43,777 nucleotides of DNA from positions 1-43,777 of IMG/VR virus record IMGVR_UViG_3300050821_013337; one strand, 5' to 3'. Below are positions 1-43,777 of the stretch, piece by piece. Numbering within the stretch: position 1 is the first letter of the stretch; each line of letters begins with the position of its first letter. The notes beneath the pieces are model-generated. The model was not told the DNA's origin. It saw only the letters and a program-made list of their open reading frames with translations, and made no database searches. Both the position numbers and the translations under genes were made by a program. Source of the stretch: a virus.

Positions 1-98
1 GGGACGACGCGATCCATGCCTTCGGCAAGTCGCTCGTGGAGCATTTCGGAGAGGGCAACGTCTTCCACCGCGGCGGCGACGAGTTCGTCGCGCAGCAC
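1..98. repeat. Terminal direct repeat, left copy
   Basis: Bases 1-98 are identical to 43680-43777. The repeat lies inside one reading frame that continues in register across the junction, so the window is a circular or circularly permuted molecule opened within a gene. The length fits an assembly overlap better than a biological terminal repeat, but a short real repeat cannot be excluded from sequence alone. Confidence 0.9.
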
Positions 99-3000
99 GT
101 GAGCCCCGAGCAGGCCGATGCGGCCATGGCTGCCGTGCGCGCCGACATGGACAAGTTCCAGGTGAAGGGCAAGGACGTCGGTTCGGGCGAGCGCCGCCAG
201 CAGACCGGCATCGGCCTCAGCTACGGCAAGGGCGAAGACGTCGGCCAGGCGGAGCTGGACCAGTATGCCGACAAGGCCCGGCGCAAGGCCGAGGGCAAGC
301 GCGTGGGTGTTCGGGAGGACGTCGCCCCGGGCGTCGAACCGACGAAGCTGGAGCAGGGCCCGGAACGCGGCTACATCCAGTTCGGCGCCGGTCGGAAGTT
401 CAACATCGGGCTCCTCGACGGAGCCGACCTCTCGACCTTCGTCCACGAGACGGGACACCTCTACACGGAGTTGCTGGGCGACCTCGTGAAGGAGCCCAAG
501 GCCTCCGAGCAGCTCAAGGCGGATTATGCAACCTTGCGTGAATATGCAGGCGCCAAGGGCGACGCGCCGCTGACGACGGAGCAGCACGAGACCCTGGCGC
601 GGTCCCTGGAGGCCTACCTCATGGAGGGGAAGGCCCCGAGCGAGGGGCTGCGGGCCGCGTTCGAGCGCGTGAAGAACTGGATGAAGGTCATTTACCGCAG
701 CGTTTCAGCGCTGAACGTCAACCTCTCTGACGACGTGCGGCAGGTCTTCGGGCGCATCTACGCTTCTGACGCGGAGATCGAGGCGGCCAAGGGCCGGCTC
801 GGGGCCGACTGGCACGTGTTCCGCAGCGCCCAGGAGATGGGTGTCTCCCAGAAGGAGTTCGAGGACTACGTCGCCAACCAGAACCGCTCCGACCGTACCG
901 CGAAGGACGCGCTGCGCCGCGTGCTCGTGGGTGAGTACCAGAAGGAGCAGGAGAAGGCGGCCAAGACGGAGCGCGAGACCCTGCGCCACGAGGTCCAGGA
1001 CGAGCTGGACGCGCGGCCTGAGTACAAGGCCCTGAAGGCCCTGGCCGAGGGCAAGACGGAGGACGGGCAGCCCCTGAAGCTGAGCCGCCAGGCGATGGTC
1101 GACAAGTACGGGGCCGAGGCCATCAAGGCCCTCCCGCGCCGGTTCAGCCGCCTGTGGACGCTGGAGGGCGGCGTGGACCCCGACGCCGCTGCGGAGGTCC
1201 TGGGCTTCCGGTCCGGCGACGACCTCGTCCGTGCCCTGCGCGACGCGCCCTCCCGCAACGACGCCGTGAAGGCCGAGGTCGAATCCCGGTTCCGTGAGGC
1301 CCACCCCGACCCCATGACGGACGGCAGCCTGCCCGACCGGGCCGTGGAGGCCTCTCACAACGCCGCCCGCGAGGCGACGCTCATGGACGAGCTGCGGGCG
1401 CTCCGGCGCCTTCAGGCGACGCGAGAGGCGGCTGTGGAGGCCAAGCGCGCGGCCGACCGGGGCCCGAACGCGAAGCCCCCCACCCAGGCCATGGACGCCC
1501 GCAAGATGCTGCGGGCCCTCCCGCCCCAGGAGGCCTTCAAGGCCACGGCGCGGGAGATCATCTCGGAGACCCAAGTCCGCGACCTCGACGCTCGTGGCTA
1601 CCTCACAGCGCAGCGCAAGGCGGCCCGCGAGGCGTTCGTCGCCGCCGCGAAGGGCGACTTCGGCGCGGCCGCCGAGGCCAAGCAGCGGGAGGTCCTGAGT
1701 CACCACCTGTTCCTGGAGGCCCAGAAGGCCAAGGCCGACGTGGAGAAGATCGTGCGCCGCGCGACGGGGCTCCAGGAGACGGAGGCCCAGCGGCGCCTCG
1801 CCAAGGCCGGGGGCACCTTCCGCGAGCAGGTCAACGCGCTTCTGGACCGCTACGAGATGGCCCGGGTGCCGCTCGACACGCTCGCCAAGCGCGAGGCCCT
1901 GGCCGACTGGGCCGACAAGCAACGGGAGGACGGCTTCGAGCCCGATATCGCCCCGGAGGTCCTCAACGAGGCGCGGCGCATCAACTACCGGCAGGCGCCG
2001 GTCGGCGAGCTCCGGGCAGTGGGTGACGCCCTGAAGAACATCACGCACGTCGCACGGCAGCAGTTGGAGATGGTGGTCAACGGCCGCAAGGTGGCGTTCG
2101 AGGCCGTTAAGGAATCGCTCAAGGCCTCGGCCCGTGCGGTGGACACCACCAAGGGTGAGCCGCTCTCCGGCACGGAGAAGACGATCCTCAACCGGATCGG
2201 CGACGGGCTCGTGGGCGCGGACGCCATGCTGGTAAAGATGGAGCGCGTCTTTCGCGACCTCGACGGCGGTAAGATCGGCCCATGGTCCGATAACCTTTTC
2301 CGCCCCATCGCGGAGGGGCAGACAAGGTTCTACGAGCTGAACCGCGACGTGACGATGAAGCTCCGCGAGACGATGAAGGGCCTTCCCAAGGAGGTCAAGA
2401 ACGGCCTCGCCGACCGCTTCGAGGTCGACGGTTTCGACCAACCGATCAACCGGCGCCAGCTCCTCACCATGGCCATGAACCAAGGCAACGCTGAGAACCA
2501 GCGCGTCCTGCGCGAGGGCTACGGCCTGAGCCAGCAGCAAGTCGACAGGGCGATGCATAATCTCTCCCGGCCCGAGGCCGAGTTCGTCGCCAAGGCGTGG
2601 CAGGTCCTAGAGACGCTGCGCGAGCCGGCGGGCGACCTTCAGCGCCGGATGACGGGCCTGGAGCCCAAGTGGGTCGACACTCAGCGCTACACCTTCCGGA
2701 CGAAGGATGGCGACGTGCAGACGGAGGGCGGTTACTTCCCCCTCGTCGCCGACCGCGACCGCACGACCGTGGGCCCGAAGGTCAGCGCCGACGCGCTCCT
2801 GGAGAAGGAGTACGTGCGGGCGACCACCTCGCAGGGCTACTTGAAAGAGCGTACGGGCGCCACCTACCCGCTCCTGCTGGACTTCCAGCGCATCCTCTCC
2901 TCGCACGTCCTCGGGGTGGTGAAGGACCTCTCCTACCGCGAGGCGGCGACCTCCATCAACAAGATCATGTCCGACCAGACCGTGCGCGAGGCCGTCGACG

Positions 3001-4208
3001 GCGCCGTAGGGCGATCCTATCGCAAGCAGATCGAGCCCTGGCTCCGCAACGTCCTCAACGACTCCAATGACTCCACGGTGAAGGGGCTGCGGGACTTCTC
3101 CACGTGGGTCAACGCCACGCGGCGCAACGTCTCGGCAGCCACCATCGGCTTCCGCATCACCTCCATGCTCACCATCCCGACCGACCTCTTCCGGGCCTGG
3201 GAGCCGGGGCGCAGCATGGAGTCGACCACGACGCGCGTGGACACGCGGCACCTCGCCGCCGGGTTCAAGGACTTCCTCTCGAACCCCGTGCAGGCGACGA
3301 AGTGGGTGCGTGAGGCCTCGGGCGAGATGCGCTTCCGGCCGCACAACATCGACCGTGACGTGCGCTCGCTCTTCCAGCAGCAGCTCGTGCGCCCGGCGCT
3401 CACGGGCAACCCGCTCGACGCGGCGACGGCCTTCCGCAACTACGTCACGACCCGGGCCTATGAGGGCTTCGCGTTCGTCGACACGATGGTGACCATCCCC
3501 ACTTGGCTCGGGGCCTACCGCCAGGCGATGGAGGCCGGATTGCCCCACGACAAGGCCGTCTTCCAGGCCGACGCCACGGTGCGCCTGTCCATCGTCTCCG
3601 AGAACCCTAAGGACCTCGTCGCCCTCCAGCGGAACAACGACCTCTCCAAGCTGCTCACCATGTTCAACGGGTGGGGCTTCTCCACCTACGACCTCATGCG
3701 GACCCTGGGGCGCGACGTCAAAGGGCCGGGCACGGCGGCGAAGGCCGCCTTCTACGGCCTCCTGGGCGTCTCCGTCTCCAACATGGCGGCGGCTTACCTC
3801 GCTGGGCGCGGGCCCGACAAGGGCGAGAATGTCGGCGAGTGGGCGGCCCGCGAGGCGGTCCTGGGCCCCTTCGACGTCATCCCGGTCGTCAGGGACTTCG
3901 CCGACTACGGCGTGGGCCAGCTGACGGGGCGCGGGGGCGACATGCGCTTCAGCCCCGTGCTCACGATGATGGAGAAGGAGGGCAAGGCCCTCGTCGCCCA
4001 GGGGAAGGCTCTTCAAGGCGACGAGGACATCGGCGACTACCTGACAGTCACGGGAGAGGCCCTGGGCTACCTCATGGGCATCCCCGGCACGGCGCAAGCA
4101 ACTTCCATGACAAAATACCTGCGGCGCCTTGCAAGCGGCGACGAGCAGCCCGACAATGCGGCAGTGGCGGTCCTCGATGCTGCCCGCGGCAAACCCAAGG
4201 GGAAGTGA
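1..4208 (+). CDS. Polyvalent virion protein, 3' part (GGDEF end, zincin, C-terminal region)
   Basis: This is the continuation of the gene that starts at 41642; joined, it encodes about 2081 residues, and numbering here is from that GTG. The GGDEF signature is at residues 704-708 and the domain ends near 755 with the family's ADxA...AKxxG-type helix (ADKARRKAEGKRVG). A zincin metallopeptidase follows: HETGH at 828-832 with a likely third ligand Glu876 in HETLARSLEAY. This resembles the peptidase of phage polyvalent proteins. Long charged helical and coiled-coil stretches follow (about 980-1030 and 1190-1310). The C-terminal third, with a GGYFPL segment near 1600 and an Ala-rich hydrophobic stretch near 1945, resembles large podoviral virion proteins. 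By position after the transglycosylase gene it is the counterpart of the largest T7-type ejected core protein. Ejection and enzyme activity are inferred. The stop is at 4206-4208, 3 nt before the tail fibre gene. Confidence 0.85.
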   Translation, partial: DDAIHAFGKSLVEHFGEGNVFHRGGDEFVAQHVSPEQADAAMAAVRADMDKFQVKGKDVGSGERRQQTGIGLSYGKGEDVGQAELDQYADKARRKAEGKRVGVREDVAPGVEPTKLEQGPERGYIQFGAGRKFNIGLLDGADLSTFVHETGHLYTELLGDLVKEPKASEQLKADYATLREYAGAKGDAPLTTEQHETLARSLEAYLMEGKAPSEGLRAAFERVKNWMKVIYRSVSALNVNLSDDVRQVFGRIYASDAEIEAAKGRLGADWHVFRSAQEMGVSQKEFEDYVANQNRSDRTAKDALRRVLVGEYQKEQEKAAKTERETLRHEVQDELDARPEYKALKALAEGKTEDGQPLKLSRQAMVDKYGAEAIKALPRRFSRLWTLEGGVDPDAAAEVLGFRSGDDLVRALRDAPSRNDAVKAEVESRFREAHPDPMTDGSLPDRAVEASHNAAREATLMDELRALRRLQATREAAVEAKRAADRGPNAKPPTQAMDARKMLRALPPQEAFKATAREIISETQVRDLDARGYLTAQRKAAREAFVAAAKGDFGAAAEAKQREVLSHHLFLEAQKAKADVEKIVRRATGLQETEAQRRLAKAGGTFREQVNALLDRYEMARVPLDTLAKREALADWADKQREDGFEPDIAPEVLNEARRINYRQAPVGELRAVGDALKNITHVARQQLEMVVNGRKVAFEAVKESLKASARAVDTTKGEPLSGTEKTILNRIGDGLVGADAMLVKMERVFRDLDGGKIGPWSDNLFRPIAEGQTRFYELNRDVTMKLRETMKGLPKEVKNGLADRFEVDGFDQPINRRQLLTMAMNQGNAENQRVLREGYGLSQQQVDRAMHNLSRPEAEFVAKAWQVLETLREPAGDLQRRMTGLEPKWVDTQRYTFRTKDGDVQTEGGYFPLVADRDRTTVGPKVSADALLEKEYVRATTSQGYLKERTGATYPLLLDFQRILSSHVLGVVKDLSYREAATSINKIMSDQTVREAVDGAVGRSYRKQIEPWLRNVLNDSNDSTVKGLRDFSTWVNATRRNVSAATIGFRITSMLTIPTDLFRAWEPGRSMESTTTRVDTRHLAAGFKDFLSNPVQATKWVREASGEMRFRPHNIDRDVRSLFQQQLVRPALTGNPLDAATAFRNYVTTRAYEGFAFVDTMVTIPTWLGAYRQAMEAGLPHDKAVFQADATVRLSIVSENPKDLVALQRNNDLSKLLTMFNGWGFSTYDLMRTLGRDVKGPGTAAKAAFYGLLGVSVSNMAAAYLAGRGPDKGENVGEWAAREAVLGPFDVIPVVRDFADYGVGQLTGRGGDMRFSPVLTMMEKEGKALVAQGKALQGDEDIGDYLTVTGEALGYLMGIPGTAQATSMTKYLRRLASGDEQPDNAAVAVLDAARGKPKGK

Positions 4209-4211
4209 CCC

Positions 4212-6302
4212 ATGACCCTGACCACGCTGAACATGAAGGTCTCCTACCCGGGCACGGGGGCACAGACCGTCTTCCCCTACGCCTTCCGGGTCTTCAACAC
4301 GACCGACCTCGTGGTCACGGAGACGGTGACCGCCACCAACGTGACGACAACGCTTGTCCTGAACACGGACTACACCGTTTCGGGCGTGGGGCTCTATGCC
4401 GGGGGCAACGTCACGCGCACCGTCGCGACGGCCGTCGGCACCACCATCGAGATCAAGCGCGTCGTGCCGCTCACGCAGCCGACGGACATTCGCAACCAGG
4501 GCGCCTTCTTCGCCTCGGTCCACGAGGACGCCTTCGACCGCCTGACGATGATCCAGCAGCAGCAGCAGGACACGGTCGGTCGCGCGCTCACGCTGCCCGA
4601 CCCTTCCACGGGCATCAGCTCCACGCTCCCCATCCCGGCCGCGAATATGCTCCTTGGATGGGACCCCACGGGCACCTTCATCGTCAACTCGCTCGGGCCC
4701 ACCACGCCGTTCGACACGGTCGTGCCGCTCATGGATGGTGTCGCAGCGAACGGCACCCGCACGACCATCGTGCGCGGCGACCACGTGCACCCATCCGACA
4801 CGAGTCGCGCGCCCCTCGCCTCTCCGGCCTTCACTGGCACGCCCACGGCACCGAGCCCGGCCGTCAACACGAACACGACCCAGGTCGAAACGACGGCGGG
4901 GATGGTGGCCCAGCTTGCGGCACCCACTCGTAAGGTTCCCGCCGGACTTCCGGCGCTGGCCCTCACACTCGTGGCCATTGATGGGGTTGGACAGATCGAC
5001 ATTTACCCGAACGACGCGATCATGGCCTCGAAGCTTTACGAGCCCGGCCTGTGGAACACGGGCGTATACTATGTGAAACCATCCACTGGCTCCGACTCCA
5101 ACGCTGGGACCACGGCGGCCGCTCCCTTCGCCACGGTAGACAAGGCCTTCCGAACGGCGGCGGGGAACGCCTCGCGGGTGGTGATGCTGGAGAACGCCGT
5201 CATCCCGCCCTTCGACCTGCGCTCTACCGACGCCTCGCAGTCCACGCAGCAGTTCAAGTGGCTCGACGCGAACGGCTACAAGGTGACGATCCGCGTCACG
5301 GGGCCCGACCTCACCACGCAGACCTGGGCCCAGGACGGTGTTCAAACGAACTGCTGGCACTCCACGCTCACCGTGTCCGGTTCCCAAGCTCCCAAGCGCA
5401 TCCTCCGCATGGACCAGCTTGACCGTTATGGCTACTACCAGGAACTCATCAATTATTCCTCGGCGGCGAACCTCAATGCCGCGCCTGGCGATGGGTGGTG
5501 GTGGGATGGCACCTCCGTCCTCTGGGTCAAGATCGGCGCGGGCACGAACGTCCAGAACCAGCGGGCCATCCTCAAGGGCCTCTACTGCGACACGAACGGG
5601 AACTTTCGCGTTCTCTGTTACGGTTCCTCTCTCGGCATGTCGGGCGTCACGCTGGAGGGCGTCCAGTTCGTTCAGCTGGATCAAAATAGCCGCAGGCCTG
5701 AAATCTGGCTGCACCAGTGCCAGTCTTTCTGGGCTGCGGACAAGGGCGCGGACCTCACCACCGCAGGATGGTTCGTGGCGACGGAGTGCCTGTTCTACTC
5801 CAGCCGGAACGATTGCGTGAACGCTTTCGCGCCCAGCGCCACGGGTCCGGGGCTCATCCACACGGCACGGTGCAACTTCGTTCGAGCCGGGAACTTCGAC
5901 ATCTTCCCGCTGGACGGCACGATTCAGGGCACCTCGGCCCACGGTGGTTCTTCTCATGTGGGCTGGGCCAACAACTACTTCGAGAACAACGGCCAGCAGG
6001 TGGCGGACACCTGCATCAACAGCTCGAACGACATCACCTGGCTCGTGGCCTGTTCCGCGAAGGGTGGCGCTCTCGGGCCCTTGTCGCCGAACTACCTGTT
6101 CGGATCGGCCGCCACGAGCGCGAGCCGAAAGGCCTATCTGGACACCTGCGCGTCCTTTGCCCCCGGAAACAATGCGGCAGGCGCAGCCGAGTACGATTTG
6201 GAAGTGGACGCCAATGCCACGGCCTACACCTTCAATTCAGCGTTGCCCTACACCACGGGTACCGCTCCGACCACCTATGCCTCTCCCCTGACACCTCCGT
6301 GA
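4212..6302 (+). CDS. Tail fibre/tailspike, T7 gp17-like N-terminus and beta-helix-like body
   Basis: A 696-residue receptor-binding protein. Residues 1-130 match the tail-attachment domain of T7-type fibres: Tyr/Phe-rich beta strands, then QPTDIRNQGAF, ALDRLT-like AFDRLTMIQQQQQ and RALTLP. The middle is Thr/Pro-rich linker. From about residue 285 the start YYVKPSTGSDSNAGT, followed by repeating short strands, resembles pectate-lyase-like parallel beta-helix tailspikes that bind or cut surface polysaccharide. No catalytic residues can be assigned by eye. GGGGAAG precedes the ATG. The gene sits directly after the polyvalent virion gene and 9 nt before a second fibre-like gene, the usual place for adsorption proteins. 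Confidence 0.8.
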   Translation: MTLTTLNMKVSYPGTGAQTVFPYAFRVFNTTDLVVTETVTATNVTTTLVLNTDYTVSGVGLYAGGNVTRTVATAVGTTIEIKRVVPLTQPTDIRNQGAFFASVHEDAFDRLTMIQQQQQDTVGRALTLPDPSTGISSTLPIPAANMLLGWDPTGTFIVNSLGPTTPFDTVVPLMDGVAANGTRTTIVRGDHVHPSDTSRAPLASPAFTGTPTAPSPAVNTNTTQVETTAGMVAQLAAPTRKVPAGLPALALTLVAIDGVGQIDIYPNDAIMASKLYEPGLWNTGVYYVKPSTGSDSNAGTTAAAPFATVDKAFRTAAGNASRVVMLENAVIPPFDLRSTDASQSTQQFKWLDANGYKVTIRVTGPDLTTQTWAQDGVQTNCWHSTLTVSGSQAPKRILRMDQLDRYGYYQELINYSSAANLNAAPGDGWWWDGTSVLWVKIGAGTNVQNQRAILKGLYCDTNGNFRVLCYGSSLGMSGVTLEGVQFVQLDQNSRRPEIWLHQCQSFWAADKGADLTTAGWFVATECLFYSSRNDCVNAFAPSATGPGLIHTARCNFVRAGNFDIFPLDGTIQGTSAHGGSSHVGWANNYFENNGQQVADTCINSSNDITWLVACSAKGGALGPLSPNYLFGSAATSASRKAYLDTCASFAPGNNAAGAAEYDLEVDANATAYTFNSALPYTTGTAPTTYASPLTPP

Positions 6303-6311
6303 GGTCCTGAT

Positions 6312-7592
6312 ATGCCCACCACACTCCCTCTCACGGTTGCCCAGGTTGCCAATGCGGCGCCGCTGCAATCGCCAGTCTTTTATGGGCCGGTGACCTTTGC
6401 GGCGCTCACGCAGAACCGGATTCCCTTCTCCGGTGTGAACGGCGTTCAGCAGGACAGCGCAAACCTGACGTACGTGGTGGGAGTCGGGCTCACGCTTTCA
6501 GACACCCTGCTCATCAGCGGCGGAATTAACAGTTCCAACTCAAACCCGCTCCAGTGCATCAACGCCAGCTACCTCTACTGGAAGGACAGCGGGGGTACTT
6601 CCAGGCGCATCTTCGGGATGAACTCCGGCAACGTGGTCTACATCGGGGTGATCGACCCCGGGTGGGGTGCGGGCGTCAACGTCCAATCCGGTGGTGCGGT
6701 CAACGTCTCCGTCAATGGTGCGTCCGCCGCGTTCATCTCGTGCACCTTCAATGCCGGCGGCAGCACGACCTTCTTCGGGAAGCTGAACACCGTTGCTTCT
6801 GCCACCGGCGCCGCGTCACTGAACGTTCCCAACGGCGTGGCCCCCACGAGCCCCGTTCAGGGCGATGTATGGGCCGATGCGAACGGCACAATTAGCTTCA
6901 AGGCCAACCTTGCCCCTACTGGATACATTTCCTCGGCGGTCGGCGGCGCGGTGGCCAGCGCCTCCACCATCACGCCCACGGGCCCCGTCTTCCACATCAC
7001 GGGCGCGGTGGCCATCGCTACGATCAACCTGCCGTGGACCGGCTTCACTGGAACGCTGACGCTCATCCCCGATGGTAATTTCACCACCACCACAGGCGGC
7101 AACATCGCCAAGGCCATCACGGCGAATATCGGTCAGGCCATCGCGGCCACTTACGACGGAACGAAATGGCAGTTGTCCTTCTTGTCGGGGGCCACGGCTT
7201 TCGTGAACGCCGCTGCACCGACGGCCACGGCAAGTACCACCTCCGTCATGATGGGCATGAACCTCACCGTTACGCCGACCCGTTCGGGAACGCTCGTCAT
7301 CAGTGGGTCCGGCCAGATGGCGAACGGGACCATCAACGACGGTGCCACCGTGCAGCTCTACTACGGAACCGGCGCAGCCCCCACCAACGGCGCGGCGGTT
7401 TCGGGTACGGCCCTGGGCTCTCCGCAGACGCACACGTCGCTCGTGGCTGCCGACACCGCCGGGTGGTCATTCACCATCCCCCTCAGCAACGCCACCATCG
7501 GCACGACCTACTGGATCGACGTGGCGCTCAAGGCCGTGACGGGCGGCTCGGCCAGCGTCACAGGCGTCAACCTTGCCGTCGTGGAACTCTGA
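6312..7592 (+). CDS. Second tail fibre / receptor-binding-like protein
   Basis: A 426-residue protein rich in Gly, Ala, Ser, Thr, Val and Asn with almost no charge clusters, as in beta-structured fibre or tip proteins. The segment near residues 165-190 (LNVPNGVAPTSPVQGD, WADANGTISFK) is typical of phage fibre shaft-to-tip boundaries. The last 125 residues look like a jelly-roll or TNF-like tip (alternating hydrophobic strands, GTTYWIDVALKAV). It follows the tailspike with GAGG before the ATG and precedes the lysis cassette. The exact receptor and the split of duties with the upstream tailspike cannot be read from sequence. Confidence 0.65.
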   Translation: MPTTLPLTVAQVANAAPLQSPVFYGPVTFAALTQNRIPFSGVNGVQQDSANLTYVVGVGLTLSDTLLISGGINSSNSNPLQCINASYLYWKDSGGTSRRIFGMNSGNVVYIGVIDPGWGAGVNVQSGGAVNVSVNGASAAFISCTFNAGGSTTFFGKLNTVASATGAASLNVPNGVAPTSPVQGDVWADANGTISFKANLAPTGYISSAVGGAVASASTITPTGPVFHITGAVAIATINLPWTGFTGTLTLIPDGNFTTTTGGNIAKAITANIGQAIAATYDGTKWQLSFLSGATAFVNAAAPTATASTTSVMMGMNLTVTPTRSGTLVISGSGQMANGTINDGATVQLYYGTGAAPTNGAAVSGTALGSPQTHTSLVAADTAGWSFTIPLSNATIGTTYWIDVALKAVTGGSASVTGVNLAVVEL

Positions 7593-34466: not shown

Positions 34467-35126
34467 GTGGCGACCCAGGTCCAGATTTGCAACTTGGCCT
34501 TGGGTCGCGTCGGGAAGACCATTCCCATCGCCTCCATGACCGAACCCTCGGCGGAGGCGGCTTTGCTGTCTCAGCTCTGGGACATTGGCCGTCAGTTCGT
34601 GCTGCGGGAGTGCCGGTGGCCCTTCGCCACGCGGCGCGCCTTCCTGACGCTCACCTCGCAGGTTGCCGACAACTGGGCCTACGTCTACGCCTTCCCGACC
34701 GACTGCCTCTACATGGGTGAGGTGGTGGTCCCTGGCAGCGTGCTAGCGTCGCCGTTCTCCAGCTCCATCAACATTCCCGGGTACCTCTTCAACCCGGCCG
34801 CGCCCAACAACGCCCAGCGCATCCCGTTCCAGGTGGCCTACGACCCCGTCGGCGGTACGCGGGTGCTTTACTGCAACATCAATCCGTGCGAGGTCAGCTA
34901 CATCACGGACGTCGCAGACCCGCAGCAGTTCGACCCGCTCTTCGCGTCGGCGCTCGCCTTCTGGCTCGCCTCTGAACTGGCTCTGTCGCTGGTGAACAAC
35001 CCGCAGATGGGCGAGAAGATGCGCAACGCCTACTATGGTGAGGCCTCGTCGGCGGTCGCCCGCGCGCTGTCCGAGGGCACGGAGTACCAGGAGCCCGACT
35101 CCCAGTTCGTGGCGGTCCGGCAGTGA
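34467..35126 (+). CDS. Tail tubular protein A (T7 gp11-like adaptor)
   Basis: 219 residues. ICNLALGRVG, then the helical SEAALLSQLWDIGRQFVLRECRW-type start and WPFATRRAFL are characteristic of the gp11/gp4 adaptor family that forms the ring between portal and nozzle. Further signs are AYVYAFPTDCLYM and the C-terminal helix ASALAFWLASELALSL. The GTG has AGGAG 6 nt upstream. It overlaps the nozzle gene as GTGA. Confidence 0.85.
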   Translation: MATQVQICNLALGRVGKTIPIASMTEPSAEAALLSQLWDIGRQFVLRECRWPFATRRAFLTLTSQVADNWAYVYAFPTDCLYMGEVVVPGSVLASPFSSSINIPGYLFNPAAPNNAQRIPFQVAYDPVGGTRVLYCNINPCEVSYITDVADPQQFDPLFASALAFWLASELALSLVNNPQMGEKMRNAYYGEASSAVARALSEGTEYQEPDSQFVAVRQ

Positions 35127-38100
35127 CTCAGAACCTCGTCCAGCCCTCGCTGTCCGGCGGCGAGCTGGCCCCGGCCCTGTACGGGCACGTGGACCTTCAG
35201 CGCTACGGCATCAGCCTCGCGCTCTGCCGCAACTGGATCGTGAACCTCGGCGGCGGCCTCAAGAACCGCGCCGGCCTCCGCTATACCGGCACCTGCGCGT
35301 CCTCGACGAAACGGAGCCGCCTGGTGCCGTTCCAGTTCTCCTCGACCCAGTCCTACGTGCTGGAGTTCGGGGACTACACGATGAAGGTCTACCGCGCCGG
35401 GGCGCCGATCAACACCACCATTGCCGTGACGGCGGCGGCGTTGGGGACGGGCGATGGTGCTACGACCACCTTCACCATCGTGGAGCCGACGGTTCCGACC
35501 GTGACGGCCGTCTACCGCAACGACTGGCAGGGGAACCAGCTCCTCTACCCGACGCCGCGGTATAACGGGACCTATTGGTCGGAGTCGCCCCACAATTGGG
35601 CCGGCACGACCGGCATCTCCTACGTGACCGGCGCCATCGCGGGCCCGCGGCCCGGGTCGCTCGCCGACTCAATTTCGTACAACGGTTCGGGGACCGTTAA
35701 CGCCTTCCGCGTGCTCTTCCCCAACGCCAATGTGGGCGCCGGGCCCGCTACGGCCTCCATCTGGCTCAAGGCCGGGAGTGCTACGACCGTCGTCCTTCAG
35801 GATGGGCTCGGCAACAGCGTCACCTGCAACCTCACGACGACGTGGCAGCGCTTCAGCCTCTCGGCCGTGGTCGCGAGCTACTACAACCTGCTCCTCTACC
35901 AGCCGTTGGGCGTGAACACGGCTTTCACGATCTATGCCGATTGCTACCAGGTCGAACGAGGTTCCGTCGCCACGGCCTACCTTCCGGCCACAGGGCCGTT
36001 TGGGTCCAGCGGTGCCGCCTCCGTCACGGACTACACCGTCTCCGGCTATGTCGTGAGCTTCGGCGAGGTGCCGCTCTCCGGCGCGGCGCTCACGTGGACC
36101 GGCACCTACCCCACGACCGGGGGCCTCGTGGTGACGACGCCCTACGCGGCGGCCGACCTGCCGCTGCTGCGGTGGGCCCAGTCGAACGACGTGCTCACGG
36201 TCGTGCACCCGAGCTACCCACCCCAGCAGGTGAAGCGCCTCGCGGAGTCCTCGTGGACGATGACGCCGCAGGTCTTCAACGTGGGGCCGTTCGATTCCCT
36301 CAATGTGGACAAGACGAAGACCATCAACTTCAGCGGGTCGGATGGCGCCATCACGATCACGGCGTCGTCGCCGATCTTCACTGCGGACAAGGTCGGGCTC
36401 CTCTTCTACGTGCAGCAGATTCTCAATCCCACCCCTTGGTCCCAGGCCCAGGTCATCGGCTCCGCGGGCCTCATTCGGCGCTCCGACGGCAAGAACTACC
36501 GCGCCCTGAACTCTGGCACCACGGGCACCGTGCAGCCGCTTCAGACTGACGGCAAGTGGGATGACGGCGGCGTGTCGTGGCAGTTCATGGATCAGGGGTT
36601 CGGCTGCGCGCGAATCTCGACCGTTTCCGGTGACGCCTTCTCGGCACAGGCCGTGGTCACGAGTCACATTCCCGACAACTGCGTCGTGACAGCCGGAAGC
36701 ACGCTGACCATCTCAGCCGTCTCTCAATTCCTTTTGTCGAACCAAGCCGCATTCAACGTGACGGCGCATGGCTTCTCCATCGGAACGACCGTCAGCTGGG
36801 TCATCGTCTTCAAGGATAACAACGGGGTCAACCAGACGAGCACCGGCAGCGCCGTGATCAGCCAGATCATCGACGCCAACAACTTCCTCGTTCCGAACCT
36901 GTTCACGGACCTTTTCCCCAACGCCCAGTACGTGTTGGGTGTGGGCCTCGTGATCGTCAGCGCGACGCTCAACAACTACGTGCAGGCGTCCTACCGCTGG
37001 GCCTTTGGCGCGTGGAACAACTCCAACGGCTACCCGCAGTCGGTGACGTATCACCAGCAGCGTCTCACCTTCGCGGGGTCCCCGAAGTACCCGCAGACCG
37101 TGTGGATGAGCCGTACGAACGCCTTCGGCGATTTCAGCCAGTCCAGTCCGCTTGTGGACGACGATTCGCTCACCTTCTCCTTCGCCTCCGGCCGCCAGGA
37201 CCCGATCCAGGGCATGATGCCGCTGGGCCAGCTCCTGGCCTTCACCTCCAACAACGCTTGGGTCGTGGGCAACTCGGCCCAGAACGCGCTCACGCCAGGC
37301 AACATCTCGGCCCGCGTGCAGGGGTTCAACGGCGCGTCGGCCCTGCCTATTCTTCCCGTGGACAGCGCGGTCCTCTTCGTGCAGTCGAAGGGCACCATCG
37401 TGCGGGGCATGGGCTACAGCTACCAGTACGCCTACGATAACTACGCGCCTTCGACGAACCTCTCGATCCACGCTGAGCACCTCTTCAACGGCTTTCAGAT
37501 CCAGGAGTGGGCGTTTCAGCAGGTGCCATTCTCGTGCGTCTGGTGCGTGCGGAGCGACGGCGAGCTACTGGGTTTCACCTACAACCAGGAGCAGCAGGTC
37601 ACGGCGTGGCACCGGCACGACACGCAGAACGGCCTGTTCGAGTCCGCGTGCGTGATCTCGGAGGGAGGCGAGGATGTCCTCTACGTCATCGTCAACCGCA
37701 CGATCAACGGCGCCCCGGCGCGGTACGTGGAGCGGATGGACACGCGCACCATCGCGAGCAACCTGGACGGGTTCTTCGTGGACTGCGGGCTCTCTTTCGA
37801 CGGCCGCAACACGACGGCCCAGACGGTGACGCTGACGGGCGGCACGGCCTGGAACCAGACGGAACACATCACGATCAATTCGTCGGCGCAACTCTTCAAC
37901 TCCCCGAAGGCGCTGGTCGGGGACCAGATCGGGTTCATCCTGGCCGACGGCTCCTACCTCCGGCTCACCATCGACACCATCACGAGCAATACGCAGGCGA
38001 CCGGCATCCCATCGAAGCTGGTGCCAGTGGCCTACCGCAGCGGCGCGCGGGCTGATTGGTTCTGGGCGACGGCCAACTACTCCGGCCTCACGCAGCTGGC

Positions 38101-38551
38101 AAACCAGCCCGTCGTTGCGCTTGCCGACGGCAACGCCATGATCTCTCAAGGGCTCACGGTCAGCTCTGGCGGCGCGGTGACGCTGCCACGACCCGCATTC
38201 CGCGTGCACATCGGGCTTCAGATCATCGCCGACATCCAGACGCTCGGCGTGGCTTTCGGGCCGCCGGACCAGGGCATCGAGCGGGTGAAGGCCATCAACG
38301 CTGTGCGCCTCATGGTGAACACCTCAACCGCCCTCTTCGCGGGGCGCGACCCCAGTCACCTCTTCCAGCAGAAGTTCCGGAGCTTCGAGGCCTACGACTC
38401 CTCGGATGCGATGACGACGGGCATCGAGCCCATCACCATCACGACGAGTTGGGGGACGGACGGCACCATCTTCATCCGCAACGTGAACCCGCTCCAGGCG
38501 AACATCTCCGCCATCGTGCCGGAAGTCTCCATCGGGGGTTCCAGTGGCTGA
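35123..38551 (+). CDS. Tail nozzle (tubular protein B-like) with inserted carbohydrate-binding-like domain
   Basis: 1142 residues, longer than T7 gp12 (about 790). The N-terminus is typical: QPSLSGGELAPALYGHVDL, CRNWIVNLGGGLKNRAGLRY and VPFQFSSTQSYVLEFGD. Between about residues 133 and 295 there is an extra jelly-roll-like segment (TASIWLKAGSATTVVL, VTCNLTTTWQRFSLSA, TIYADCYQVERGS, ATAYLPATG) that resembles carbohydrate-binding modules on phage tails. The nozzle resumes with LLRWAQSNDVLTVVHP, and RLTFAGSPKYPQTVWMS and FTSNNAWVVGN mark the distal part. It forms the end of the tail and may also touch surface glycans. Confidence 0.85.
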   Translation: MTQNLVQPSLSGGELAPALYGHVDLQRYGISLALCRNWIVNLGGGLKNRAGLRYTGTCASSTKRSRLVPFQFSSTQSYVLEFGDYTMKVYRAGAPINTTIAVTAAALGTGDGATTTFTIVEPTVPTVTAVYRNDWQGNQLLYPTPRYNGTYWSESPHNWAGTTGISYVTGAIAGPRPGSLADSISYNGSGTVNAFRVLFPNANVGAGPATASIWLKAGSATTVVLQDGLGNSVTCNLTTTWQRFSLSAVVASYYNLLLYQPLGVNTAFTIYADCYQVERGSVATAYLPATGPFGSSGAASVTDYTVSGYVVSFGEVPLSGAALTWTGTYPTTGGLVVTTPYAAADLPLLRWAQSNDVLTVVHPSYPPQQVKRLAESSWTMTPQVFNVGPFDSLNVDKTKTINFSGSDGAITITASSPIFTADKVGLLFYVQQILNPTPWSQAQVIGSAGLIRRSDGKNYRALNSGTTGTVQPLQTDGKWDDGGVSWQFMDQGFGCARISTVSGDAFSAQAVVTSHIPDNCVVTAGSTLTISAVSQFLLSNQAAFNVTAHGFSIGTTVSWVIVFKDNNGVNQTSTGSAVISQIIDANNFLVPNLFTDLFPNAQYVLGVGLVIVSATLNNYVQASYRWAFGAWNNSNGYPQSVTYHQQRLTFAGSPKYPQTVWMSRTNAFGDFSQSSPLVDDDSLTFSFASGRQDPIQGMMPLGQLLAFTSNNAWVVGNSAQNALTPGNISARVQGFNGASALPILPVDSAVLFVQSKGTIVRGMGYSYQYAYDNYAPSTNLSIHAEHLFNGFQIQEWAFQQVPFSCVWCVRSDGELLGFTYNQEQQVTAWHRHDTQNGLFESACVISEGGEDVLYVIVNRTINGAPARYVERMDTRTIASNLDGFFVDCGLSFDGRNTTAQTVTLTGGTAWNQTEHITINSSAQLFNSPKALVGDQIGFILADGSYLRLTIDTITSNTQATGIPSKLVPVAYRSGARADWFWATANYSGLTQLANQPVVALADGNAMISQGLTVSSGGAVTLPRPAFRVHIGLQIIADIQTLGVAFGPPDQGIERVKAINAVRLMVNTSTALFAGRDPSHLFQQKFRSFEAYDSSDAMTTGIEPITITTSWGTDGTIFIRNVNPLQANISAIVPEVSIGGSSG

Positions 38552-39008
38552 GTTCCGTTGGGCGCCGACCACTCCCGACGATGCCGCCGCCGTGGCGGCC
38601 CGGGCGCGACGTGCTGACGTCGACGAGCTGTGGGCTGCCTCCCTCATGACCCCGGCCGAGGCGATCCGTGCCGGGCAGCGCTTGTCACCTGAAACCCTGA
38701 CCGGGTTCGTCAACGAGGTCCCGGTCTGCATCTTTGGGGTCGCCCGACCGTCGCTCACCTCCGACCTGGGCGTGCCGTGGATGGTTGGCACGGAGGACCT
38801 GGGCTTCCATGCAAAGGGCTTCCTTCGCGGGAGCCGTGAGGTCATCAAGGCCATGGTCGCCAAGCACGCGATGCTGGCCAACTTCGTCGACGCGCGGAAC
38901 GCGAAGGCCCTAAACTGGTTGAGGTGGCTCGGATTTTGCGTCGAGGCGCCCATTCCCTACGGCCCGTTCCAGCTCCCCTTCCATCCCTTCTTCCTGACGA
39001 GGCCCTGA
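38544..39008 (+). CDS. GNAT-like phage virion-region protein (T7 gp13-type)
   Basis: 154 residues with the N-terminal FRWAPTTPDDAAAVAARARRAD and the C-terminal VDARNAKALNWLRWLGF, which together mark a GNAT-fold family in podoviruses placed where T7 has gene 13. Acetyltransferase activity is not shown; the acetyl-CoA loop is only partly visible. It may be an assembly factor for the internal core. It overlaps the nozzle gene by 8 nt. Confidence 0.7.
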   Translation: MAEFRWAPTTPDDAAAVAARARRADVDELWAASLMTPAEAIRAGQRLSPETLTGFVNEVPVCIFGVARPSLTSDLGVPWMVGTEDLGFHAKGFLRGSREVIKAMVAKHAMLANFVDARNAKALNWLRWLGFCVEAPIPYGPFQLPFHPFFLTRP

Positions 39009-39011
39009 CCC

Positions 39012-39497
39012 GTGTGCACCCCGGCCGCCATCCCCATCGTCACGACCCTCATCGCGACGGGCGTGACCGTCGCAGCCCAGCAGCAGAGCACTCAATTCCA
39101 GGAGGCCGTGGCGGACCGCGACGCGGCCCAGGCCAACCTTAAGGCGCAGGATGCCGTCGCCCGCGGGCAGCTCGCCGAGGACGTGCAGCGCAACCGCGTG
39201 CGGGCCATTGAGGGCAGCCAGCGGGCGGCCATCGGCGGCTCGGGCGTCCAGGCCGACAGCGGCACGACCGGCAGCGTGCTCTCCCAGACGGCTCAGCTCG
39301 GGGAGCAGGACGCGCGGACCATCCGCACCAACGCCATGCGCGAGGCCTGGGGCTACAAGTCGCAGGCCTCCAACTTCCAGCTCCAGGGCCAGCTGGCCGG
39401 CATCCAGGGTCAGAACGAGACCCTGGGGTCCCTGATCACCGGGGGCGCGCGGGCCTACGGCATCTACGCCCAGCAGAACCCTCCGACCATCCACTGA
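39012..39497 (+). CDS. Internal virion protein (gp14-like)
   Basis: 161 residues. It has a hydrophobic start (IPIVTTLIATGVTVAA), then Gln/Ala-rich helices and GGSGVQADSGTTGSVLSQ, LGEQDARTIRTNAMREAWGY, a pattern common to the smallest ejected core protein of T7-like podoviruses. In T7 this class inserts into the outer membrane on infection. Position before the transglycosylase gene agrees. GTG start. Confidence 0.7.
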   Translation: MCTPAAIPIVTTLIATGVTVAAQQQSTQFQEAVADRDAAQANLKAQDAVARGQLAEDVQRNRVRAIEGSQRAAIGGSGVQADSGTTGSVLSQTAQLGEQDARTIRTNAMREAWGYKSQASNFQLQGQLAGIQGQNETLGSLITGGARAYGIYAQQNPPTIH

Positions 39498-39503
39498 GGA
39501 CCC

Positions 39504-41645
39504 ATGGCCGAACCCCTCTACTCCGAACCCCAGGTCACGCCGCAGGCGGCGCCGAGCGGCTATGTGCAGGCCTCTGCGACCCCGGAGACCTTCGGCGCGG
39601 GCGTGGGGCAGTCGATTCAGGGCCTTGGGGACGTGTTGGAGCGCGCGCAGGAGGAGGCGAAGAACATTCGGGTCAACGATCAGGTGAACCAGCTGACCGA
39701 GAAGTCGCTGGACCTCGCCTACGGCAAGGACGGCTACCGGAACATCCTGGGGGGCAACGTCCTCAAGACCCCGAACGGGAAGCCGCTGACGGAGGACTAC
39801 TCGCAGCGCTTCGAGGACTTCGCGTCGCAGGCCCGGGCGCAGCTCTCCACGCCCCAGCAGCAGGCCCTATTTGACCGGCGCGCCATCCTGATCCGCAAGA
39901 ACTACATGCGCGGGCTGGAGGGCCACGAGCAGCAGCAGGTCCACGCCTTCGCCGACGAGACGGACAAGGGGACTATCAACACGCAGGCTGATGCGGCCGT
40001 CAAGATGTGGAACGACCCGGCCTATACCGACACGGCGGTCGCCGCCTCTGACGCCGCCTGGGCCTCCTACGGCCAGCGGAACGGCCTCCCCGCGAACCAG
40101 GTGCAGGAACTCCAGCAGCAGAGCCGCAGCACCATGTACACGAAGGTGCTTCAGGCTGCGCTCGATGGCGGCGATACGACCTACGCCGAGAGCTACTTCA
40201 AGCACTTCGGGTCCGACATGACGGGCGAAGACGCAATGAAGGCCGGGGTGCTGATCAACGGGAAGGCTGGGGACAACCTCGCCTTCTCCGCCACGCAACA
40301 TGCCTACCAGGATGCGGTGAACGCCCGGAAGGCGCAGGGCGACCCTGGCGCTGCATTGATCAAGGCCGTGCAGGACGTGGAGTCCGGCGGCAACCCTGAC
40401 GCCGTGTCGCCCAAGGGCGCCAAGGGCCTCATGCAGGTGATGGACGCGACGAACGGCAACCCCGGCTTCGGCGTGACTCCGGCCAAGGACGACAGCCCGC
40501 AGGAGCGGGCCCGCGTCGGTCGCGACTACCTCGGGGCGATGATCTCGCGTTACGGTGGCGACCTCCAGAAGGGGCTCGCGGCCTACAATGCCGGGCCCGG
40601 TGCCGTCGATGAGGCCCTGAAGGAGTCCTCTAAGGATGTGAACCAGGGGATGAAGAACCCCGACGGGACGGCGAAGACCTGGATGGACTACCTGCCTGAC
40701 GAGACCAAGGCCTACGTGCCGAGCGTCATGTCGAAGCTCGACAAGTACGGCAACTCCGGTCCGGCTCCGCTGCCCTCCATGGATGAGTTCACCTCGTCGG
40801 CGATCCAGTACGCGACGCAGCAGAACGGCGGCCCGTTGAACCCCACGCAGATGCACAAGGTGATGACGAACTCGGAGCAGACCTATGCGAAGCTCCAGCA
40901 GGACCAGAAGCAGCAGGGCACGCAGGCGCTGAACGATGCGATGAAGATGGTGTCTCAGGGCGCGACCTTTGACTCGCTGCCGACGGCCGTGAAGAGCGCC
41001 GTGCCCGGTGACGACCTGCCGCGGCTCAAGGAGTTCTCCGACAAGCTCCAACTGGGCACGCCGATCAAGACGGACCTGGACCTCTACCAGCGGCTCACGA
41101 CCGACCACTCGCTGCTGACGCAGATGAGCGATCAGGAGTTCAGCACCTTGAAGCTGAAGCTCTCGGCCTCGGACTTCGAGCACTTCGCCAACGAACGCGC
41201 CGCCCTCCAGAACGGCACGGGCGCCAAGGGCCCCGGCAACCTGAACAACGCCTTCGTCACCAAGACCGTGGACCTGATGGTCTCGCAGCTCGGGCTGCCC
41301 ACTCGGCCCAAGCAGGGGTCCGAGCAAGCCGGGCAGGTGGGTGCCATTCGCCAGGCGATCAACGCCGAGCTGCTCTACGAGCAGAAGACCAATGCCAAGC
41401 AGTTCAACGACGATGAGCTTCAGGGCCGGATCGCCTCGATGTTCCAGCTCCAGGGCACCGTGCACAACATGATCTTCCCGAACACGCAGGGGTCGCTCAT
41501 GAACGTGCGGAAGCGCGACATTCCTGATGCCGACCTCGCGGCCCTCCAGAGCGACTTCAAGGGTCGTGGCATCGTGCCCTCCGACCGCGACCTCGTGGAG
41601 TCCTACCTCGAACTGAAGCTGCGGCAGGCCGGGAGCAAGAAGTGA
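39504..41645 (+). CDS. Internal virion protein with lytic transglycosylase domain
   Basis: 713 residues, mostly helical and Gln-rich, with an SLT-type transglycosylase domain at about 285-375. The catalytic Glu293 is in VQDVESGGNPDAVSPKGAKG; then LMQVMDATNG, RVGRDYLGAMISRYGGD and LAAYNAGPGAV, the family's conserved tail. It would open peptidoglycan locally while DNA is injected, like the N-terminus of T7 gp16. GAGGA precedes the ATG. It overlaps the next gene as GTGA. Confidence 0.88.
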   Translation: MAEPLYSEPQVTPQAAPSGYVQASATPETFGAGVGQSIQGLGDVLERAQEEAKNIRVNDQVNQLTEKSLDLAYGKDGYRNILGGNVLKTPNGKPLTEDYSQRFEDFASQARAQLSTPQQQALFDRRAILIRKNYMRGLEGHEQQQVHAFADETDKGTINTQADAAVKMWNDPAYTDTAVAASDAAWASYGQRNGLPANQVQELQQQSRSTMYTKVLQAALDGGDTTYAESYFKHFGSDMTGEDAMKAGVLINGKAGDNLAFSATQHAYQDAVNARKAQGDPGAALIKAVQDVESGGNPDAVSPKGAKGLMQVMDATNGNPGFGVTPAKDDSPQERARVGRDYLGAMISRYGGDLQKGLAAYNAGPGAVDEALKESSKDVNQGMKNPDGTAKTWMDYLPDETKAYVPSVMSKLDKYGNSGPAPLPSMDEFTSSAIQYATQQNGGPLNPTQMHKVMTNSEQTYAKLQQDQKQQGTQALNDAMKMVSQGATFDSLPTAVKSAVPGDDLPRLKEFSDKLQLGTPIKTDLDLYQRLTTDHSLLTQMSDQEFSTLKLKLSASDFEHFANERAALQNGTGAKGPGNLNNAFVTKTVDLMVSQLGLPTRPKQGSEQAGQVGAIRQAINAELLYEQKTNAKQFNDDELQGRIASMFQLQGTVHNMIFPNTQGSLMNVRKRDIPDADLAALQSDFKGRGIVPSDRDLVESYLELKLRQAGSKK

Positions 41646-43777
41646 GCCAGCCCCTTCAGAACCCTCCGGGAGATCCCGTCTCCGACGCCGTCTCGGCCTA
41701 CCTCAACCGGCCGAAGGTGGACCCCGTGAAGGCGGGGGTCGTGCCGGTGCTGGGGCAGGACCCGGACTATGAGGCGAAGATGCAGGGGCTCGCCAAGGAA
41801 CTGGGCATCCCCACGCTCGCCGTGAAGGGCGCGCCGCAGCAGGCGGCCCAGCAGGCTCAAGTCCAGAAGATGGGCCTCGATACCCTGAGCCAGCAGTTCC
41901 CGGCAACGGCCAAGTTCCTCTCCAACCAGGACAACGCGGCGGTGGCCCACGACGATGTGGACAACCTCAAGGCCATGGAGATCACGCTCTCCGACGGCTC
42001 GCGGCAGCTCATCGACGTGGGCTCCGTCCACCCCGACCAGCGGTCTGCGATCACGCGGTTTCTCCAGGAGAAGCTGCTGCCCACGCTCCAGGGCTTCCCA
42101 GTCACGCGCGCGGCCATCGGCACATTGGGCGGGACAGTCGGCATGGGCGGCGACATCGCCTCCTTCGCCGGGCTCCACGGGCCCGACAGCGGCCCCAACG
42201 CACTCCAGCGGTTCCAGCGGCGTCTCGACCCCTCCGTCACCGGTGCCGACACGATAATGGGCAGCCGCCACCTGCCTTTCGACACCATCGCTCAGAACCT
42301 CGGCCCGCTGCTCCCGACCCTCGGGGTCGGTGCCGCCACCTCCACCACCGCGCGGGTCCTGGGCGCCTCCGAGCGCACGGCGAACTTCCTGGCCGCAGGA
42401 ACCACGGGTGCCGCCTTCACGGCCCAACAGGGCGGTCAGGCCTTTGAGCAAGCGCTCGCCGAGGGCAAGACGCCGGACCAGGCGCGGACCGTCGCGGACC
42501 GCGTGGCCCTCATCAACGCCCCGGCCAACATCGGCCTGGGCGCGCTGTCCAGCGCAGAGCGCTTCCGGGCCCTCGGCCCGCTGGCGCCGGCGGCCCTCGG
42601 CGCGGCCCAGGGCGCGTCGGCCCAGGTGGGGCAGAACTACCTGGAGGGGCAGCCCCTGACGCAGAACCTCCTGGGCGCCACGACTCAGGGTTCGGCCTTC
42701 ATGCTCGGCCTCCACGGGGCCTTTGAGACGGTCGGCGGCGTTCAGGCCGCGCGCGACGCCTCCGAGCTGGCGCGAGAGTCCAAGCTCCGCCAGCGGTCCC
42801 CGGACAAGTATGCCGAGGCCGTGCAGGGTGCGGTCGCGGGCACGACGGCCGAGAGCGTGCGCGTGCCGGTGGACGAATTCAACAAGGTCTTTGCCCAGGG
42901 CGGCAAGGACCCCGAGCAGGTGGCGAACGCGCTGGGCGCGACGAACTACGCCGAGGCCAAGTTGGCTGGTACGGACGTGCTGCTGCCGACTGGCGAGTAC
43001 TTCGCTAAGGTGGCCGCCACGCCAGAGGGGAAGGCGCTGGAGCAGCACCTGCGTTTTGCGCCCGAGGCCCTGACGGAGTCGGAACTCCAGACCTACATGC
43101 AGCAGGCGCCGGAGGAGCAGGCGAAGCTGAAGGCCGAGGGCCAGAAGCTGGCGGAGCCCGACGCCCGCGCGACGGCCGTGCAACGCATCGCCGAGGATAC
43201 CCAAGGTCAGCTGGAGGGCGCGGGCTTCGACCCGTCGGTGGCGCGGACCTACGCCCAGCTCCACTCGAACGCCATGGCGAACCTGGCCGAGCGGTCCGGG
43301 ATGGACCCGCTGGAGCTTCAGCGCCGCTTCCCGCTCACCGTCTCCCGCGGCGGCGCGGAGGAGGGTGTTCCACGTGGAACGGAGCCCGCCGAGGTCGCGC
43401 CCGTGGAGCGCCGCTCCGTGGGGGATCGCGCCGCCCAGATCCGGGACCTGATCACCAAGCGCAAGGCCGGGGCCATCACGCCGGAGGAGGGCGAACTGCT
43501 CCACGACCTGAACGAGCGCGAGCGCGTCCAGGCGAAGGTGGGTGGCTCCGACATGCCCGGCGTCTCGAACACCACGGCCTACGCCGACGCCCGCGCCGCC
43601 GGAGACCTCAAGTCGACTCAAGTGTTCGCGGACCTCGACGACTTCAAGCGGGTGAACGACACCTTCGGCCACGCGGCGGGGGACGACGCGATCCATGCCT
43701 TCGGCAAGTCGCTCGTGGAGCATTTCGGAGAGGGCAACGTCTTCCACCGCGGCGGCGACGAGTTCGTCGCGCAGCAC
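41642..43777 (+). CDS. Polyvalent virion protein, 5' part (helical region and start of GGDEF domain)
   Basis: Starts at a GTG overlapping the transglycosylase stop and runs off the window end, continuing in register at base 3. Residues 1-650 are largely helical, with Gly/Ala-rich hydrophobic stretches near 155-175 and 220-330 and an acidic/Gln-rich segment around 480-530. The GGDEF domain starts near 645: VFADLDDFKRVNDTFGHAAG holds Asp664, Asn672 and Asp681, spaced exactly as Asp327, Asn335 and Asp344 of PleD, and RGGDEF is at 703-708. The RxxD inhibitory site expected just before GGDEF is absent (FGEG instead). A c-di-GMP or related cyclase is the family expectation; activity is not shown. 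No sensor or membrane domain typical of cellular cyclases is attached. Confidence 0.85.
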   Translation, partial: MSQPLQNPPGDPVSDAVSAYLNRPKVDPVKAGVVPVLGQDPDYEAKMQGLAKELGIPTLAVKGAPQQAAQQAQVQKMGLDTLSQQFPATAKFLSNQDNAAVAHDDVDNLKAMEITLSDGSRQLIDVGSVHPDQRSAITRFLQEKLLPTLQGFPVTRAAIGTLGGTVGMGGDIASFAGLHGPDSGPNALQRFQRRLDPSVTGADTIMGSRHLPFDTIAQNLGPLLPTLGVGAATSTTARVLGASERTANFLAAGTTGAAFTAQQGGQAFEQALAEGKTPDQARTVADRVALINAPANIGLGALSSAERFRALGPLAPAALGAAQGASAQVGQNYLEGQPLTQNLLGATTQGSAFMLGLHGAFETVGGVQAARDASELARESKLRQRSPDKYAEAVQGAVAGTTAESVRVPVDEFNKVFAQGGKDPEQVANALGATNYAEAKLAGTDVLLPTGEYFAKVAATPEGKALEQHLRFAPEALTESELQTYMQQAPEEQAKLKAEGQKLAEPDARATAVQRIAEDTQGQLEGAGFDPSVARTYAQLHSNAMANLAERSGMDPLELQRRFPLTVSRGGAEEGVPRGTEPAEVAPVERRSVGDRAAQIRDLITKRKAGAITPEEGELLHDLNERERVQAKVGGSDMPGVSNTTAYADARAAGDLKSTQVFADLDDFKRVNDTFGHAAGDDAIHAFGKSLVEHFGEGNVFHRGGDEFVAQH
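43680..43777. repeat. Terminal direct repeat, right copy
   Basis: Identical to bases 1-98; see the left copy. It encodes residues from Gly680 to just after the GGDEF motif of the polyvalent protein. Confidence 0.9.

Follow-up and report, generated by a model that had tools for sequence, protein, structure and literature searches.

A GGDEF domain as putative exchangeable cargo of a giant polyvalent protein encoded at a podoviral internal-virion locus

Results

Gene context of the giant gene

The window analyzed here, 43,777 bp long, is a virus record from IMG/VR and, judged by its sequence, a BPP-1/AF-type podovirus. The giant gene that is the focus of this work starts at position 41642 on the plus strand and follows a set of internal virion genes in the same orientation. 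These encode an internal virion protein (38544..39008; phrog_308, E=4e-38), a T7 gp14-like internal virion protein (39012..39497; PF24072, E=3e-8; phrog_418), and a transglycosylase (SLT) of the "structural lysozyme" type (39504..41645; PF01464, E=2e-20; phrog_10475). The latter two genes lie directly upstream of the giant gene, and a tail fibre/spike gene lies downstream (4212..6302, plus strand; phrog_1640, E=9e-47). The sequence-only reading of this DNA had spoken of a podoviral virion protein, and the position directly after the gp14-like and lysozyme-type genes is indeed that of a podoviral internal-virion locus. We infer the virion status of the scaffold protein from this gene order, which is also the basis used in PMC8951688, where the UFJF_PfDIW6 homologue g16 is called only "possibly" structural.

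The other genes of the window encode a head-tail connector, a GP7-type capsid protein, Bbp16-like and Bbp19-like proteins, a terminase, a DNA polymerase III alpha-type polymerase, a SNF2 helicase, and a peptidase M15 protein. Pam3 gp33/gp34-like proteins are also found among the ORFs, and a tail protein of 1142 aa (35123-38551) is seemingly bipartite, with phrog_20269 matching its N-terminal half and phrog_376 its C-terminal half. A megablast query of 13.8 kb found nothing similar among phage records, and the phage therefore appears to have no close sequenced relative among them.

Reading frame across the circular junction

The contig ends cut the giant gene, which raises the question of whether the fusion described below is an assembly artefact of wrongly joined ends. 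Comparison of the ends revealed that the first 98 bases of the window are exactly the last 98 bases. Rejoining at this overlap yields a continuous frame that runs from a GTG codon at 41642 through the junction to a stop at 4208, giving the 2081 codons reported in the sequence-only reading, along with a joined PF00990 match. Residues 1-712 are encoded at 41642..43777 and residues 681-2081 plus the stop codon at 3..4208 (plus strand; phrog_9880, E=6e-266). Residues 680-712 are those repeated by the overlap, and the letters of the GGDEF motif are therefore present at both window ends. In addition, single homologous proteins from two other viral contigs align through the junction, one to window residues 578-2076 (L125) and one to residues 573-790 (L103), which makes the join credible and rules out a chimera at the giant gene. 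With an exact overlap, an unbroken frame, and homologues spanning the junction, an artefact is extremely improbable. Long antisense ORFs opposite the giant gene were set aside as high-GC shadow frames.

Domain organization of the giant protein

From the N to the C terminus, the protein consists of an LPD22 domain, a conserved block, a GGDEF module, a HETGH segment, and a phrog_9880 scaffold, all encoded on the plus strand. LPD22 (large polyvalent protein associated domain 22) spans residues 37-122 (41750..42007; PF18834, E=5e-21). The conserved block spans residues 367-621 (42740..43504), and blastp alignments to relatives end at ∼575-621. The scaffold occupies residues 797-2081 (351..4205) and is ∼30% identical to Bbp10 of BPP-1 and to the proteins of phages AF and PfDIW6. 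With its 2081 aa, LPD22, GGDEF, and HExxH, it has the make-up of a polyvalent phage protein.

Adjoining the GGDEF module is a segment with a HETGH motif (residues 828-832; 444..458), which putatively corresponds to a zincin-like metallopeptidase. The HExxH motif and its flanking residues are invariant among relatives in sets of 8 and 32. The structural model of this segment was weak (pLDDT 73.5) and gave no significant fold match; the peptidase assignment is thus based on the conserved motif and on zincin-like domains having been described for polyvalent proteins (PMC5512222).

Active site and fold of the GGDEF domain

The GGDEF domain is split by the window ends into residues 636-712 (43547..43777) and residues 681-781 (3..305), with D664 at 43631 and the GGDEF motif, residues 704-708, at 43751-43765. 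On the joined sequence, PF00990 matches residues 657-776 with 50.7 bits (E=2.3e-13), and the window end alone scores 39.1 bits (E=8.5e-10), against a curated cut-off of 23.8 bits. The metal-binding residues D664 and D706, the guanine-binding residues N672 and D681, the GGDEF motif, and the phosphate-binding K771 (273-275) are all present; R774 lies at 282-284. The residue numbers given in the sequence-only reading are correct on the joined frame, and the spacing of the metal and substrate residues matches that of PleD, with D681 at the position of PleD D344. The reported loss of the RxxD feedback site also stands, as the segment at this site reads HFGEGNVFHRGGDEF.

Two parts of that reading require qualification. 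Although the PF00990 domain and the active-site set are present, "complete" overstates the case: near the N terminus of the domain, SDMPGVSNTT stands as a degraded form of the DxLTGxxNRR motif, which counts against the predicted cyclase activity. Few or none of 44 relatives share any one of the substitutions T639P, R644T, and R645T. Similarly, the C-terminal helix does supply the phosphate lysine, but the ADKARRKAEGK segment is not the canonical "AD..LxxxK" helix, which lies one turn earlier. No N-terminal sensory or dimerisation domain was recognized with the window GGDEF domain.

A cyclase fold is well supported through L103, which is 36% identical to the window domain and, of the polyvalent homologues that the scan described below brought up, the closest to it. 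The AlphaFold2 model of L103 has a pLDDT of 96.7, and the 50 PDB matches listed for it are all GGDEF-domain proteins, nearly all of which are described as diguanylate cyclases; they include PleD, WspR, and DgcZ, with query-normalised TM-scores of 0.54-0.69. Among phage proteins, the model matched GGDEF proteins from Bordetella CN1, SP-15, and phage G. By way of this homologue, the window domain is predicted to adopt the diguanylate cyclase type of fold.

A phage-type GGDEF family

A single-protein scan of IMG/VR with the window GGDEF piece returned no relatives, and an alignment-based query was needed. Using the window domain together with YuA/FP1 relatives, 42 viral GGDEF loci were found, most of them inside ORFs of 1,000-4,400 residues which also contain domains of the polyvalent kind, among them inorganic pyrophosphatase, RadC, LPD1/5/22/23/38, ART, kinase, and ParB-like domains. 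A scan of like kind across 84,980 bacterial and archaeal genomes gave four loci, all on MAG contigs; the search patterns of the two scans differed slightly, and the ratio of 42 to 4 is only indicative. In three polyvalent proteins (L129, L130, and L131) a zincin/scaffold-like segment precedes the GGDEF domain, an order swapped relative to the window.

Conservation in relatives bears out the importance that the sequence-only reading gave to Asp664, Asp681, and the GGDEF motif. Every one of the 44 aligned family domains has D664, N672, G705, E707, and K771, whereas D706 is kept in 43 (one has E), D681 in 40, and R774 in 38. Conservation of ≥90% is reached by 19 of the 160 columns, the catalytic ones included, and the probability of five such sites falling among them by chance is 1.4e-5; the search patterns spanned the D664-N672 and GHAAGD segments, where conservation is partly selected for, and G705-F708 and K771 lie outside them. 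Of the 47 family rows, two have the RxxD motif, and L142, one of these two, is itself a canonical domain of bacterial type; among bacterial domains the motif is present in 25 of 26, these controls being top-scoring canonical domains. The combination of family-wide RxxD loss with retained catalytic residues, as it appears from these alignments, is new here. Unusual substitutions in the family include SLKW and SGDEF, and the window domain has GG where 31/44 relatives have SG.

With the phage family HMM, the window domain reaches 110 bits, compared with 53 bits for the HMM of bacterial domains. A quick tree placed it firmly among phage domains, and a careful tree placed it on a long branch among phage rows, which a 97/95 split separates from the bacterial rows as well as from two further viral domains, L079 and L094. 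AU tests on the quick and careful trees either spoke for the bacterial side or left it standing; on the careful tree, a bacterial-side placement of the long-branch window domain was not rejected. Placement in the family therefore rests on the profile scores, by which the window domain belongs to the phage-type GGDEF family.

An exchangeable cargo slot

Similarity of annotated phage homologues to the window protein stops at ∼575-621 and resumes at ∼776-813, which delimits a slot at residues ∼622-796 that, from these alignments, appears to be the site of an exchangeable effector. The GGDEF motif is in none of 16 annotated phage homologues, a set from which the unannotated record zth2-2 was left out. 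Instead, the slot contains PBECR1 in BPP-1 Bbp10, PBECR5 in Cobetia phage Carin1, ART in Caulobacter phage Jess A, LPD23 in phage AF, and GNAT plus PBECR5 in Acinetobacter phage Ab9, where ART denotes an ADP-ribosyltransferase and PBECR a nuclease.

To extend this comparison, we turned to IMG/VR. A single-protein scan with the scaffold found no relatives, and an alignment-based profile scan found 562. A Pfam census of 70 slot regions from 80 of these relatives gave ART in 11, PBECR1/3/5 in 7, LPD3 in 4, GGDEF in 3, LPD23 in 2, zeta toxin in 2, RadC in 2, and GNAT in 2-3. The L051 slot region, along with the census, places zeta-toxin and RadC among the scaffold cargos.

A search for the same fusion in other phages yielded four further viral contigs of this scaffold with GGDEF in the slot (L079, L094, L082, and L125). 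The L125 locus (3-6815) carries the phrog_9880 plus LPD22 scaffold with an SGDEF-type domain in the slot, and in this case as well the contig breaks where the giant gene starts. The slots of L079 and L094 contain a GGDEF domain of another type, closer to those of bacteria (FDANNFG, GGDEF, and DPLTG, with DxDxFK altered), which suggests independent acquisition of cyclase cargo. An alignment that took in these two domains offered no segment of sufficient conservation to serve as a search pattern. An exchangeable slot of a podoviral scaffold, in which GGDEF is a recurrent cargo, is new here.

Discussion

Proposed role of the GGDEF cargo

Our current hypothesis, to which we assign a probability of roughly 60%, is that the 2081-residue protein is a polyvalent ejection protein and that the GGDEF domain in its slot is a feedback-insensitive c-di-GMP synthase. 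The giant protein would leave the head with or ahead of the phage DNA, and the adjoining zincin-like peptidase may cleave the polypeptide. Paired GGDEF domains would then turn host GTP into c-di-GMP early in infection, without feedback, and the cell could be pushed toward a sessile, less motile, altered-surface state, or its c-di-GMP signalling could be disturbed. We infer each of these steps, from virion presence, ejection, and processing to catalysis, the c-di-GMP product, and the physiological effect. A bolder version holds that podoviruses of the BPP-1/AF type employ an exchangeable-cargo ejection protein, which one lineage loads with a virus-specific, feedback-free c-di-GMP synthase, so that host signalling is rewired in the first minutes, before phage expression; we consider this version tentative and would sooner doubt it than rely on it.

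The dose is one point of concern. Cyclases act in pairs, and T7-type virions contain few copies of their core proteins, so that one or two cyclase dimers might enter the cell; both points count against the ejected-cyclase reading. At typical diguanylate cyclase rates, roughly, one or two dimers could yield tens of molecules each minute, which is on the scale of the basal c-di-GMP pool, at tens to hundreds per cell. The amount of c-di-GMP made by ejected copies is thus plausible, not generous.

A different reading of the same domain is that the GGDEF fold is real and that no c-di-GMP is made in the window phage, the domain serving as a GTP- or c-di-GMP-binding sensor or as structural filler. 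Many bacterial GGDEF domains are degenerate, and the degraded DxLTGxxNRR motif and the long branch of the window domain fit such a role. However, the metal, guanine, and phosphate residues, which a non-catalytic sensor would not need, are all kept in the window and across a family of ∼35% identity, and the I-site, which a product sensor would retain, is the part that was lost; we judge this reading unlikely, though deserving of serious consideration. The nature of the product raises a further alternative, namely that the product is another cyclic nucleotide, for example cGAMP, or is mixed, and that it acts as a decoy or jams nucleotide-based defence. Hybrid cGAMP-making GGDEF domains have a serine at the guanine-specificity aspartate position. 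The retention of D681 in the window and in most relatives argues for GTP and c-di-GMP, and we regard another product as very unlikely, even with the unusual SLKW and SGDEF substitutions of the family and the proposal that polyvalent proteins disturb nucleotide signalling (PMC5512222).

Alternatively, an active cyclase could be expressed from the phage genome with the late proteins, or in lysogens, and not be injected. Annotations of the standalone relatives that YuA and Vojvodinavirus phages encode point to host conversion (for YuA gp44, "putative role in host cell conversion"), and Bordetella siphoviruses encode standalone GGDEF proteins, with hyperbiofilm formation in LK3 lysogens to which the enzyme may contribute (PMC8471281). 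Expression of this kind is quite unlikely for the window phage, as its domain is fused into a protein at an internal-virion position, the other slot cargos are of injected-effector types, and Pfam recognized no integrase domain among the window ORFs scanned.

Should the domain be active once ejected, as our hypothesis holds, the virion would deliver a second-messenger synthase directly, with no need for phage transcription, and this would be a route to control of the host's motility, surface, and defence. Across the family, the active site is retained and the feedback site lost, which makes unregulated c-di-GMP synthesis a checkable prediction.

Relation to known systems

The central idea, GGDEF domains in phage-injected proteins that interfere with nucleotide signalling, was already published in 2017. 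Iyer et al. (PMC5512222) describe polyvalent phage proteins with rare GGDEF members among them and propose that a cyclic nucleotide-generating enzyme in such proteins could disturb host nucleotide responses. Their example in an Acetonema longum prophage (WP_004096050) is likewise giant and combines GGDEF, a zincin-like peptidase, and an LPD, with injection proposed. It has additional SNF2, methylase, and ART domains, whereas GGDEF is the sole recognized cargo of the window protein and sits in a podoviral scaffold (LPD22 plus phrog_9880) at an internal-core position. The window protein is thus a well-documented member of an already known GGDEF polyvalent kind; the podoviral scaffold setting and the family-wide I-site loss with catalytic conservation were not met in the available text of that paper. 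Our literature search found no case of a virion-borne cyclase put to the test and no virion proteomics for the Bbp10-type protein family, relatives included.

Among annotated phage GGDEF domains, the closest are those of YuA gp44 and the Vojvodinavirus "diguanylate-cyclase GGDEF domain protein", which are 30-40% identical, share the catalytic set, and also have no RxxD. They differ from the window in being standalone proteins of ∼156 residues encoded in the nonstructural region of siphoviruses, and in lacking the hairpin segment that precedes the last strand. The window domain resembles PleD and the canonical diguanylate cyclases of bacteria in fold (through L103), active-site residues, and spacing, and differs from them in its missing RxxD I-site and degraded DxLTGxxNRR motif.

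With regard to the scaffold, Bbp10 and its homologues (phage AF, UFJF_PfDIW6, Carin1, and Jess A) share with the window protein the scaffold itself, the gene position, HExxH, and, in most, LPD22, at ∼30% identity over ∼1,280 residues. Their slots instead hold PBECR, ART, LPD23, GNAT, or unknown sequence, without the GGDEF motif. The Bbp10-type comparison thereby offers a simple test system, in which near-identical scaffolds carry ART, nuclease, acetyltransferase, toxin, or cyclase cargo. A Bbp10-type podoviral protein is also encoded by Limnohabitans phage DC33 (PQ492659; L016), which is filed as Inoviridae yet has a 39-kb genome, and this taxonomic assignment looks wrong.
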